Assembly: GCA_021161465.1 (NCBI GenBank)
Contig: JAGHAM010000036.1
Location: 25,654-89,653 of the forward strand
From: Candidatus Iainarchaeum sp.
GTDB lineage: Archaea > B1Sed10-29 > WALL01 > JAGHAM01
DNA length: 64,000 nt
Reading direction: 5' to 3'
Both the position numbers and the translations under genes were made by a program. Shown here in pieces: positions 10,959-63,650 of the stretch. Numbering within the stretch: position 1 is the stretch's first letter; each line of letters opens with the position of its first letter. The notes under the pieces are model-generated. The model searched no databases, had not been told where the DNA came from, and saw nothing but the letters and a program-made list of their open reading frames with translations.

Positions 10959-11723
10959 TCACTGTTTCGCGTTTTTGATTGCGTTCTTGAATTTTTGTAC
11001 AGTTTCCTTAACGTTTTTGTTCCCTTCCATCAGCGTACCTATCTGGATTGCATTAGCTCCTGCCTTCACTATGTTTTTAGCTTCATCAAGTTTTCTTATT
11101 CCACCGCCAACTATGTAGGGAACATCTATGGTCTCTGCCACTGCCTTCACCATCTCAATTGGCATTGGCCCCTGTGGGCTTGCCGAGCCGCAATCAGTTA
11201 GTATGAACCTGTTTCCCATATACTGGCCAGCCAGGGCGAGGGCAGCGGCTATGTTTGGTCTCCAGCGTGGGACCAGATTGGCATTTCCAACCCACCCAAC
11301 GCTTCCACCTGGCTCTATTACTATGTAGCCAGTTGGTAATGGCTCAAGGCCATAACTCTTTATCACAGGCGCGCTTATGGTCTGGGCTGTGGATAACCAG
11401 TAAGGGTCACGCGAGTTGAGCATAGTCATAAAGTAAATGGAGTCTGCATGCTTTGTTATGGTTGCAACGTTTCCAGGGAACAGGTTTATCGGCACGTTTA
11501 CGTTTTCCCGTATAAGCTTGGTTGTTGTGTCAAGTAACTCACCCTGTGCACCTATGCTACCCCCAACAAGGATGAGGTCCGCCCCGCCCTCAACACTTTC
11601 TTTCGCAACCTGTGCAGCGACATCCGGGCTAGGATGGTCACACGGGTCGATTAAAATCATGAGCATGCCTTCTCCCCGTTCTTTGTAGTCACCTATGTAA
11701 CGCTCCACTTTGCCTGGTTTCAT
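10959..11723 (-). CDS. Geranylgeranylglyceryl phosphate synthase
   Basis: Makes the first ether bond of archaeal lipids from sn-glycerol-1-phosphate and GGPP. TIM barrel of about 254 residues with LIDPCDHPSPD, LVGGSIGAQGE, YIVIEPGGSVGWVG and the phosphate-binding YIVGGGIRKLDEA near the C-terminus. I take the ATG at 11723, placed 6 nt after GAAGGTGA; an in-frame GTG at 11732 overlaps that site and is less likely. First gene of a run leading to thiC. A diagnostic archaeal marker. Confidence 0.95.
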   Translation of the reverse strand: MKPGKVERYIGDYKERGEGMLMILIDPCDHPSPDVAAQVAKESVEGGADLILVGGSIGAQGELLDTTTKLIRENVNVPINLFPGNVATITKHADSIYFMTMLNSRDPYWLSTAQTISAPVIKSYGLEPLPTGYIVIEPGGSVGWVGNANLVPRWRPNIAAALALAGQYMGNRFILTDCGSASPQGPMPIEMVKAVAETIDVPYIVGGGIRKLDEAKNIVKAGANAIQIGTLMEGNKNVKETVQKFKNAIKNAKQ

Positions 11724-58321: not shown

Positions 58322-58945
58322 ATGGATTGGATTGAGACTAAGAAAAAGTTATCTAAAATGCTGTATGGGATTGGGGCCATAAAATTTGGAGAGTTCAAGC
58401 TGGTTTCAGGAAAGACAAGCCCATATTATATTGATTTGAGGATTGTCCCGTCGTTTCCTGATGCTTATGATTTCATAACCGACGCTTATATTGATAAACT
58501 AAAAGAAGAGCTTGAGCCAGATGGAAGTGAAGTGTTGGTTGGAGTACCCACAGCAGGAATTCCACTTGCAAGTCTGATAGCTTACAAGATGAAACTACCA
58601 ATGGCTTATGTCAGGAAGCAGGCTAAAGAGCATGGAACCGGAAGGCGCGTCGAAGGCGTCATAAAACCAGGGCAGCGTGTGATAGTCATCGATGACCTCA
58701 TAACTTCTGGTGGAAGCAACATGGAGGTTATAAAAGCCCTCAGGGAGGAAGGATTCAACGCTGGTGATGTGGTGCTCTTAGTTGATAGGATGCAAGGGGG
58801 AATTAAGCGGCTCAAAGAGGAGGGCATCATCGTTAGACCAATTATGACCGTGCTTGAGATAGTTGATTACCTCGAGGAGGATGGGGTAATACCAGAGGAA
58901 CAGGCAAAGACTATTAGAGCATATGTGGAGAGTGAACAGGCATGA
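58322..58945 (+). CDS. pyrE: Orotate phosphoribosyltransferase
   Basis: 207 residues. FKLVSGKTSPYYIDLR near the N-terminus, VGVPTAGIPLASLIAYK, MAYVRKQAKEHGTGRRVEG (flexible loop) and the PRPP motif VIVIDDLITSGGS. GGGGGAT lies 5 nt before the ATG, and TTTAAATAAAAT at about 58280 may give a second promoter. Overlaps pyrF as ATGA. Confidence 0.96.
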   Translation: MDWIETKKKLSKMLYGIGAIKFGEFKLVSGKTSPYYIDLRIVPSFPDAYDFITDAYIDKLKEELEPDGSEVLVGVPTAGIPLASLIAYKMKLPMAYVRKQAKEHGTGRRVEGVIKPGQRVIVIDDLITSGGSNMEVIKALREEGFNAGDVVLLVDRMQGGIKRLKEEGIIVRPIMTVLEIVDYLEEDGVIPEEQAKTIRAYVESEQA

Positions 58946-59823
58946 GGAATTTTGCTGATATCTTACTTGCAGCGATAGATAAAAAACAGAATCCCAGTGT
59001 AGTTGGTCTTGACCCACGGTTAGATAGGATACCTGATTCCATCAAAGAGGGAAAAACACCCGGTGAAGCAATCCTTGACTTCAACAAAGGCATAATTGAT
59101 GCAATTTCACATGTAGTGCCCATGGTAAAACCCCAGATAGCTTTTTATGAGCAGTATGGGGCTGATGGGATAAGAGCGTTTATAGAAACAATCGAATATG
59201 CCAGAAGCAAGAAGCTGCTGGTTCTGGAGGATGTTAAAAGGAATGACATTGGCAGTACTGCTAAGGCCTATGCTGAAGCCCATCTTGGGGGGGCTTTTGG
59301 GGGAGATGCAGTAACAGTTAATGCTTACCTAGGAAGTGATGGCGTCAAGCCATTCTTGGAGAAAACCAGTGAGGGTAAGGGTCTCTTCATTCTGGTGAAG
59401 ACTTCTAATCCATCGTCAGGTGAATTGCAGGACAAGCTCCTGGATGATGGGAGGGCAGTCTATGAGCTTATGGCTGAGCTGGTTGATAAGTGGGGGAACG
59501 ACTGTATTGGAGAACGTGGGTATAGTGCGGTTGGCGCTGTTGTAGGCGCAACCTACCCAAAGGAGGCAGAGCTCTTGAGGAAGGTAATGCCCAGGGCGAT
59601 ATTCCTAGTTCCCGGTTACGGCGCGCAGGGTGGCGGAGCAGATGATGTTGTTCCGTGCTTTAATCCAGATGGCTATGGCGCGGTGGTTAACTCTTCCAGA
59701 GGAGTTATCTTTGCCTATGAGAAACTTGGCGGGGAATTTGACGAGGCAGCAGGAAGAGCAGCTGAGGCAATGCGCGAGGACATCAGCAAAGCATTAAAGA
59801 AAGCGGATAAGTGGCCGTGGTAA
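58942..59823 (+). CDS. pyrF: Orotidine 5'-phosphate decarboxylase, type 2 (long form)
   Basis: 293 residues. The catalytic Lys-Asp array lies in VLEDVKRNDIGSTAKAY; SVVGLDPRLDRIP and VVPMVKPQIAFYEQYG are typical of the long type 2 family known from Clostridia, Bacteroidetes and Actinobacteria. Most archaea have the shorter type 1 enzyme of about 210-220 residues. Together with pyrD/pyrK/pyrE this looks like a bacterial-style set. The ATGA overlap with pyrE shows coupling. Confidence 0.93.
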   Translation: MRNFADILLAAIDKKQNPSVVGLDPRLDRIPDSIKEGKTPGEAILDFNKGIIDAISHVVPMVKPQIAFYEQYGADGIRAFIETIEYARSKKLLVLEDVKRNDIGSTAKAYAEAHLGGAFGGDAVTVNAYLGSDGVKPFLEKTSEGKGLFILVKTSNPSSGELQDKLLDDGRAVYELMAELVDKWGNDCIGERGYSAVGAVVGATYPKEAELLRKVMPRAIFLVPGYGAQGGGADDVVPCFNPDGYGAVVNSSRGVIFAYEKLGGEFDEAAGRAAEAMREDISKALKKADKWPW

Positions 59824-59872
59824 AAACCAAAATTATTTAAAAGAAGACCACCTACTCTCCATTGGTGGTGAT

Positions 59873-60541
59873 GTGGGATTTCTTGATTTTTTAAAGAGAG
59901 AATCTCCTCAGGAGAGGTATATAAAAGAGGCAGAGGAACAACGTAGAAGGTTAGAGCTTGAGAAAAAGATTGCCAAGTACAAAGGCCAACCTTTAAGGTT
60001 ACCCATCCAAGATGTCTATAAAATCATGGGTGTCGGTTTAGTTCCTGTTGGGAGGATCGAGTCGGGTGTTCTTTATGTTGGCCAAGAAGTCATAGTTATG
60101 CCATCTGGAGTTCAAACAAAAGTTAAAATGATAGAAGCACACCACCAATCATTACAGCAGGCCGTGCCAGGAGATAACGTTGGCTTTTCTCTTGAAAACA
60201 TATCTAAGGGTGACGTAGGAACGGGCTACGTAGTTGGTGATGTTGAGCACCCACCAACAGTTGCTAGCAAGATAAGAGCAAGGGTGACTTTCCTCCATGA
60301 TTTTGAAATGCATCCTGGTCTTTCATCGAAATTATTCTGTCACACCGTGAGGGTAGATTGCGTATTTGAGGATTGTGGTTCTGAGGCCATGATGAAAGGT
60401 CAGTCGAGAGAGTATACAATATCTTTCAAGCATCCAATATGCATAGAGAAAGCATCTGAATTTGAGAACTTAGGAAAGTTTGCTTTGAGGGATAAGGGTT
60501 TAACCTTTGCATGGGGAGAGGTTCTAGACATCAGCAAATAG
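59873..60541 (+). CDS. EF-1A/EF-Tu domain II-III protein without GTPase domain
   Basis: 222 residues. After a helical, charged N-terminus (MGFLDFLKRESPQERY, then about 25 more residues) comes an intact EF-1A domain II: PLRLPIQDVYKIMGVGLVPV, GRIESGVLYVGQEV, QSLQQAVPGDNVGFSLENIS. Domain III follows (PPTVASKIRARVTFL to the end, FENLGKFALRDKGLTFAWG). There is no P-loop, DxxG or NKxD. Start is GTG at 59873, with GGTGGTGAT directly before it. Monocistronic, behind TTATTTAAAAG. Function unknown. Confidence 0.85.
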   Translation: MGFLDFLKRESPQERYIKEAEEQRRRLELEKKIAKYKGQPLRLPIQDVYKIMGVGLVPVGRIESGVLYVGQEVIVMPSGVQTKVKMIEAHHQSLQQAVPGDNVGFSLENISKGDVGTGYVVGDVEHPPTVASKIRARVTFLHDFEMHPGLSSKLFCHTVRVDCVFEDCGSEAMMKGQSREYTISFKHPICIEKASEFENLGKFALRDKGLTFAWGEVLDISK

Positions 60542-60681: not shown

Positions 60682-61185
60682 TTAGCACGTAAGTGCTGCA
60701 ATCTCCTGATTTAGCTCCTCTGCGCGCTGAATGGCTGGATGGTTTGCTCCAACAGAATCCTTAAGCTTCCGCAGGGCCTCTGCGAAACTCATCATATGGG
60801 TACCATCCGCTAAAAAGTCGACGAAGCAGACTATCTTCTGCTCAAGGGTTTTTGGTATGTAGTTCTTTTTGGGTAGCCCAAGCTTTGCGGCGTCTTCCTT
60901 GCTTATGCCAACACCAATATGTGTTTCAGCAAATTCGGCTATTTTGGGTAACCCGTATTCTTTAAGTATTATCCCGCCTTTTATCCCATGGTCGATGCCA
61001 TGAGTTTGTGAGCGACCGATGTCGTGCAGAAGCGCACCTATCTCAACCAGTTGTATGTCAACAGGAACGCTAAGCTTTTTCGCAAGCTCCACAGACTTCT
61101 TTGCTACAAACTTGCTGTGCTCTACCACGTCAGGGGGAGTTCCAACTTCCTCCAGCAACTTCAAGGCTTGCTCTCTGGTTATCAT
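60682..61185 (-). CDS. HD-domain phosphohydrolase
   Basis: 167 residues. VVEHSKFVAKKSVELA and GALLHDIGRSQTHGIDHG give the HD metal residues of the HDIG type; THIGVG follows. Archaeal proteins of this size are uncharacterised hydrolases. The start overlaps the TFE stop by 4 nt. Confidence 0.88.
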   Translation of the reverse strand: MITREQALKLLEEVGTPPDVVEHSKFVAKKSVELAKKLSVPVDIQLVEIGALLHDIGRSQTHGIDHGIKGGIILKEYGLPKIAEFAETHIGVGISKEDAAKLGLPKKNYIPKTLEQKIVCFVDFLADGTHMMSFAEALRKLKDSVGANHPAIQRAEELNQEIAALTC

Positions 61186-61694
61186 TTTGCATCAAGCTTT
61201 TTCAGGTTCTTTCTTATTTCCTTGATTTCACTTACTGTTGATTCTATGACCTTCTTGTTACTTATATGCTTCATCTCAGAGCCGCATTCTGGGCACTTGA
61301 AATCATACTCAGCAGCGAGCTCAAAAGGCAGTCTTTCACAACCGTTAACACATTCAAAATAATAATAGCTGGACTCGTCGTCGAGTCGCGCTTCGAGCTT
61401 TTTGAGTTTCTCTTCCCAATAGTCCTTTATAATTTGGGGTATCTTGTCCTTCTTCACAAACCAGGTATATGTAAACCAGTTAGTTTTTTCATTCTTTTCT
61501 CTATTGTAATCCACCAGACCAGCGAAGTGAAGCTTGTTTAGCAAGGAGCGTATGGTGTTCAGCTGTAAGCCTGTCTTTTTTAGTATCTCTTCATCAGTCA
61601 ATGGTTTTTTCTTACAGGTTTCCAGAACACCTACTGCTTCCTCACCAACAATCTCTTTAAGGACCTTCCGCACTTCGCGGTAATTAAGCCCCAC
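61182..61694 (-). CDS. tfe: Transcription initiation factor E (TFE alpha)
   Basis: 170 residues. N-terminal extended winged helix (about 1-90: LTDEEILKKTGLQLNTIRSLLNKL, then VDYNREKNEKTNWFTYTW), then a zinc ribbon (FECVNGCERL, FKCPECGSEM) and a helical tail. It stabilises the open complex at archaeal promoters. Normal length. Confidence 0.94.
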   Translation of the reverse strand: MGLNYREVRKVLKEIVGEEAVGVLETCKKKPLTDEEILKKTGLQLNTIRSLLNKLHFAGLVDYNREKNEKTNWFTYTWFVKKDKIPQIIKDYWEEKLKKLEARLDDESSYYYFECVNGCERLPFELAAEYDFKCPECGSEMKHISNKKVIESTVSEIKEIRKNLKKLDAK

Positions 61695-63325: not shown

Positions 63326-63470
63326 GTGATATAACCTAAATACAGGAGAAGGGCCCGTAGCTCAGTCTGTATGTGAATAATCACATACCTGCTCTGGCAG
63401 AGCACCAGTTCGCTTAGGCGAGGTGTAGCTCTTAATCCGCCAGGAGATACCTGGCTGCCGCGGGTTCAAA

Positions 63471-63589
63471 ATAAGGGGCACCTACGGTTCCCCCTTATAA
63501 GCCCCTTCCCTTAATGGGATGGAAAGCAGTAAGGGCGTCATGTGTTCCTTATAAGCCCCCTCCCTTGATTACTAAGTGGGGGTGGAGAC
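63471..63589 (+). other. T-loop (59/60) intron of tRNA-Lys, 119 nt
   Basis: Starts ATAAGGGG, which pairs with CCCCTTAT (63491-63498), and ends GTGGAGAC, close to the AGGTGGAAT end of the Gly and Arg introns. It contains two copies of a 20-nt unit. Ends are set by restoring a normal T-loop. Confidence 0.75.
63493..63566. repeat. Direct repeat, 20 nt, in the tRNA-Lys T-loop intron
   Basis: CCTTATAAGCCCCYTCCCTT at 63493-63512 (Y is T) and at 63547-63566 (Y is C), one mismatch, 34 bases apart. Suggests growth of the intron by internal duplication. Confidence 0.9.
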
Positions 63590-63650
63590 TCCCGTCGGGC
63601 CCTTTACTTTCTAAAACATTAAAAAGAGGAAAAGCGAAAAATACGTTAGT

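Follow-up and report, generated by a model that had tools for sequence, protein, structure and literature searches.

The window, by which we mean the whole 64-kb stretch of archaeal DNA analysed here, comes from a 0.98-Mb draft genome (93% complete). It contains a gene for a paralogue of elongation factor EF-1A that lacks the GTPase (G) domain. The gene was delimited as an open reading frame and identified with Pfam, NCBIfam, a structure-database match and an AlphaFold model, and it has a syntenic counterpart in a sister genome. Its surroundings, with neighbouring genes named by inspection, are as follows.

58322-58945, forward strand: pyrE, orotate phosphoribosyltransferase-like open reading frame, the upstream neighbour in both genomes
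58942-59823, forward strand: pyrF, OMP decarboxylase-like open reading frame, ending 49 bp before the EF-like gene
59824-59841, forward strand: putative archaeal promoter element, BRE/TATA-like, AAACCAAAATTATTTAAA
59864-59872, forward strand: Shine-Dalgarno-like sequence, GGTGGTGAT, directly before the GTG start
59873-60541, forward strand: G-domain-less EF-1A paralogue, 222 amino acids, GTG start
59873-59980, forward strand: N-terminal segment MGFLDFLK... with a charged helix (residues 1-36), replacing the G domain
59981-60238, forward strand: EF-1A domain II (residues 37-122), with the side chains of the aminoacyl/CCA pocket mostly retained
60254-60538, forward strand: diverged EF-1A domain III (residues 128-222), lacking a loop of about 16 residues
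60682-61185, reverse strand: HD-domain protein, the convergent neighbour, conserved in both genomes
61182-61694, reverse strand: TFE (TFIIE-alpha-like), conserved in both genomes

Profile and structure comparisons agree on the origin of the protein. Pfam recognizes GTP_EFTU_D2 at residues 55-121 (5e-14) and GTP_EFTU_D3 at residues 129-220 (4.1e-11), and detects no GTPase domain within the 222-residue frame. Residues 31-221 align with positions 217-422 of the 426-position NCBIfam EF-1A profile (1.3e-51), an alignment that starts where the G domain ends and extends to the C-terminus. Among solved structures the nearest are the EF-1As of archaea and eukaryotes, the best of them being Sulfolobus EF-1A (1jny, 2.3e-41). 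The relationship to EF-1A is far beyond chance. The AlphaFold model (mean pLDDT 91.5) consists of one long predicted helix, residues 12-36, followed by two barrels, and superposes on Pyrococcus EF1A (3wy9) at 1.7 Å over 188 residues. Domains II and III are thus of EF-1A type, while the domain bearing the G1-G5 GTPase motifs, which an EF-1A must have, is absent from the frame and has no match nearby; the scores of 167.8 and 175.6 bits fall short of the EF-1A equivalog cut-offs of 540.1 (TIGR00483) and 502 (PRK12317).

The two retained domains have diverged to different degrees. Domain II is 55-65% identical to the EF-1As of archaeal relatives and keeps 25 of 26 EF-1A-invariant residues, whereas domain III is 32-39% identical and keeps 11 of 15 invariant residues and 23 of 46 conserved positions. 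A separate, full-length EF-1A is encoded elsewhere in the genome; it is 46% identical to the window protein over domains II-III, and in domain III it shows 63-87% identity to the same relatives. Relative to archaeal EF1A (1jny, 3wya, 3wy9), the window protein is therefore a two-barrel likeness that differs in the missing G domain, the deletion in domain III and a new N-terminal helix. A sequence-only reading had placed the frame at the same start and end, and had described an EF-1A relative without its GTPase domain, with a near-canonical domain II, a diverged domain III and a helical N-terminus where the G domain should be; each of these points stands, and structure prediction, which it had proposed as a check, returned the EF1A fold with confidence.

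A search for homologues and their neighbourhoods, likewise suggested by that reading, uncovered one orthologue. The sister genome (G001) is the only other genome of the same family examined, and in it an intact frame is flanked by pyrE-pyrF on one side and by the HD and TFE genes on the other, with a membrane-protein gene, missing at this place in the window, inserted between pyrF and the orthologue. The encoded protein (MGMFDFLKGETEEQ...) is 47% identical to the window protein over residues 1-124 and begins with a conserved N-terminus (MGMFDFLK... for MGFLDFLK...), but it is only 125 residues long and ends directly after domain II, domain III being wholly absent. Its AlphaFold model has the same helix and one barrel (pLDDT 85.5, two of five models poor). 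The two proteins form one clade against 29 EF-1As (bootstrap 92/85 with domain II only, 94/86 with the full proteins), and they have in common K37, just before the barrel, as well as five derived residues that almost never occur in EF-1As (L56, S64, A89, S106 and G116). Thus the proposal that domains II and III together are the retained form applies to the window protein, which has both, but not to the lineage: because the orthologue stops after domain II, the conserved unit is the N-terminus plus domain II, with domain III being lost. We infer that a single EF-1A-derived gene is represented here in two successive states of reduction, with domain III probably the dispensable part.

The distribution of the gene is narrow. 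It is present in both genomes of the family examined (2/2) and in none of 17 other genomes of the class that were examined, among them four of a related family (f2) inspected beside pyrF. Two scans of public genome contigs and one of viral contigs yielded no copy beyond that of the sister genome, nor did 61 archaeal genomes or the matches listed for 297 contain a further orthologue (G001 and L042 being the same copy), though a weaker, distant copy may lie beyond the matches listed for the 297. One full-length match, L038, was set aside as a canonical EF-1A. Among the genomes searched, the form with domains II and III was seen only in the window genome.

Known proteins of related plan were compared. 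Pbp11 (NF041207, named 'tRNA-binding protein Pbp11' in NCBIfam) likewise lacks a G domain, its EF-Tu-type domain II being preceded by a short charged N-terminus, and in plan it comes nearest to the sister orthologue; however, its domain II is far diverged and domain III is lacking, and the window protein resembles EF-1A itself much more closely. Similarity to the Pbp11 profile is weak, 26.6 bits for the window protein and 23.5 for the orthologue against a cut-off of 100, and a stand-alone domain II, typical of Pbp11, occurs in the orthologue but not in the window protein, which has domain III. The EF-family protein aSelBL, thought to keep aminoacyl-tRNA and ribosome binding with its GTPase function lost (PMC3037878), resembles the window protein in being a family member devoid of GTPase function, but it is SelB-related and keeps a degenerate G-domain fold; in the window protein 36 residues, predicted to form a single helix, precede domain II, and EF-1A matches at 1.3e-51 versus 3.8e-15 for selB. 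Pbp11 and aSelBL are therefore families distinct from the window protein. The C-terminal parts of eRF3 and Hbs1 have the same two-barrel fold (3e20, Z 25.1) but are 23-28% identical, and are eRF1/Pelota-binding parts of full GTPases rather than natural G-less proteins. In a survey of translational GTPases, every identified member has a G domain and domain II, and archaea added one paralogue only, aSelBL, to the ancestral set (PMC4342817). The window gene is an EF-1A paralogue without a G domain, and this form with domains II and III is new, though related to known proteins.

Could the gene be a decaying fragment left from an EF-1A duplication? Its very small distribution, the long branch of the window protein (1.45) and a domain III that is eroding here and missing in the sister genome would fit such an origin. 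The upstream sequence argues otherwise. When the genome's own EF-1A was used as tblastn query, no G-domain remnant was found in the 64-kb window and only domains II-III were matched, so a pseudogene with a broken upstream G domain, which the sequence-only reading had named as its refutation, was rejected; nor is there space for a lost G domain, since intact pyrF ends so close to the start. An assembly artefact or contig-end fragment was rejected as well, the gene being internal, flanked by intact neighbours and syntenic in the second genome. The other refutation named, homologues that are plain gene fragments, fails on the intact orthologue, whose frame, like that of the window gene, has stayed open in two genera at 47% identity. 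The BRE/TATA-like element recurs nearly identical and at equal distance to the start in the sister genome, and the upstream regions of both orthologues have a AAACnAAAAnTATTTAAA-like box, TACTCT and GTGAT at matching spacing, with GTGAT preceding the orthologue's ATG. Given this arrangement each orthologue appears to own an archaeal promoter, and the window gene appears to be independently promoted. Derived residues common to both proteins likewise speak against decay, and a new, conserved N-terminus is unexpected for a fragment. In both domains the conserved sites are kept preferentially, 36/47 vs 16/39 for domain II (p=0.001) and 23/46 vs 12/54 for domain III (p=0.006); the test is a rough one, since majorities are weaker in variable columns. 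The fragment reading is already largely refuted and we regard it as very improbable; the gene looks like that of a real EF-1A-derived protein whose job is other than GTP-driven tRNA delivery.

As to what that job might be, EF-Tu offers a starting point: its domain II carries the aminoacyl end of the tRNA, its domain III the T stem. In the window protein, eight of the ten pocket positions compared have the EF-1A residue; they correspond to the E. coli EF-Tu contacts E215, D216, F218, T228, E259, F261, R262 and N273. Fewer are retained in the sister orthologue, where H90 is replaced by N and N102 by S. The T-stem positions in domain III are only half kept, with changes V->K, A->D and M->K in the window protein. 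For these reasons a grip on the tRNA 3' end by domain II is favoured. According to this proposal, EF-1A was duplicated and the copy remained functional; in the ancestor of the archaeal family a short amphipathic, helical N-terminus would have replaced the GTPase domain; the domain II barrel would bind the 3' ends of tRNA, aminoacylated or as bare CCA, with no GTP switch involved, possibly so that charged tRNA is shielded, stored or passed on; the N-terminal helix would provide the contact to the ribosome, a membrane or some partner; and domain III, with its T-stem contact, would be becoming dispensable. The homology of domains II and III in the absence of a G domain, the AlphaFold model, the separate EF-1A, the syntenic orthologue and the pocket residues together suggest such a functional duplicate with a GTP-independent grip on charged tRNA 3' ends, which we prefer tentatively and at a little under an even chance. 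The naming of Pbp11, a weakly similar family of comparable plan, as a tRNA-binding protein points the same way.

Several observations temper this preference. Pocket retention is no better than that of domain II overall, so that tRNA 3'-end binding is an inference; no neighbouring gene suggests tRNA metabolism; and the gene is found in two genomes only. Moreover, EF-Tu/EF-1A in the GTP form clamps the charged 3' end with domain I on one side and domain II on the other; a G-less version should consequently bind weakly, unless another element takes the place of the G domain. A tRNA-binding role is possible. The fuller claim, that a GTP-independent aminoacyl-tRNA/CCA-end binder was carved from EF-1A in one archaeal family and is caught at successive states of reduction (first II+III, then II), is conceivable though doubtful. 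If true, it would offer a direct view of the origin of tRNA-binding proteins that, like Pbp11, consist of a stand-alone domain II. An EF-1A duplicate without a G domain, together with a sister form without domain III, is an unusual natural experiment, and raises the question of what an elongation-factor domain II can do without GTP.

The main rival to tRNA-end binding is that the protein competes, on the ribosome, for the partners of EF-1A. The G-less copy would occupy the docking site of EF-1A domain II, on the ribosomal shoulder or on EF-1B/Pelota/stalk partners, and tune or shut down elongation as a hibernation or decoy factor without holding tRNA. Both orthologues keep G53 and G55 of the G-x-G loop of domain II, the small-subunit contact in EF-Tu, and lost or altered tRNA contacts would weigh less under such a role. 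There is a bacterial parallel in the hibernation factor Balon, which works with EF-Tu, roughly domains II-III alone being resolved in 8rd8 and 8rdv (chains 184-185; PMC10901736). Ribosome binding by the window protein is, however, hypothetical, and the G domain, which this protein lacks, is where many EF-1A partners chiefly dock; such a regulator seems to us unlikely. Rather less likely still is a protein or membrane scaffold with no RNA role, in which the barrel would have been turned into a protein-binding module anchored by the MGFLDFLK-type N-terminus. The first 8-11 residues are indeed conserved, hydrophobic and amphipathic in the window protein (moment 0.43-0.46), but amphipathicity is lower in the orthologue (0.20-0.33), pLDDT is low at the N-terminus, and the pocket residues remain EF-1A-like.

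Proximity to tRNA genes has also been considered. Two such genes lie about 3 kb downstream.

63351-63602: tRNA-Lys(CTT)-like, four introns (one in the D arm, two in the anticodon arm, one in the T loop), exons by comparison with the sister genome
63651-63883: tRNA-Gly(GCC), three introns (D loop, anticodon loop, T loop), exons by comparison with the sister genome, spliced form called by ARAGORN

In their unspliced form both were missed by ARAGORN and Rfam. The T-loop introns, of about 119 nt (Lys) and 60 nt (Gly), are missing from the sister genome, which has both tRNAs in the same order (L033, about 10970-11174). Thus, of three tRNA genes with T-loop introns claimed from the sequence alone, two are real; a third was not found nearby, the contig ending at the window end. 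Since the tRNAs belong to a syntenic block conserved in both genomes, their proximity is no evidence of function.

Other EF-family proteins that have lost GTPase features were encountered in the archaeal genomes. On another contig of the window genome (G000:C2:5142-5408; L003, L037), a 350-residue frame combines a SelB-like domain II with an N-terminal half that is strongly degenerate; its best solved match is 3wnb, and it is a candidate aSelBL-type pseudo-GTPase. In G005, a distant stand-alone EF-type domain II protein of 123 residues (L034:8175-8546; about 29%; MPLRDLPGAIAGFLFGKKEKPK...) follows a dCMP-deaminase-like gene and lies between two anaerobic ribonucleotide reductase-like genes, a context unlike that of the window gene, and may be an independent G-less case. 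Pbp11-type proteins, with a short charged N-terminus and domain II, are carried by G045 and G023. From the G005 protein and these Pbp11-type proteins, G-less domain II proteins seem to have originated more than once among archaea. In G045, two Pbp11-like domain II proteins are encoded within 2 kb of each other (C1:1014835-1015149 and 1016689-1016937; L085), the second scoring far below the family cut-off.
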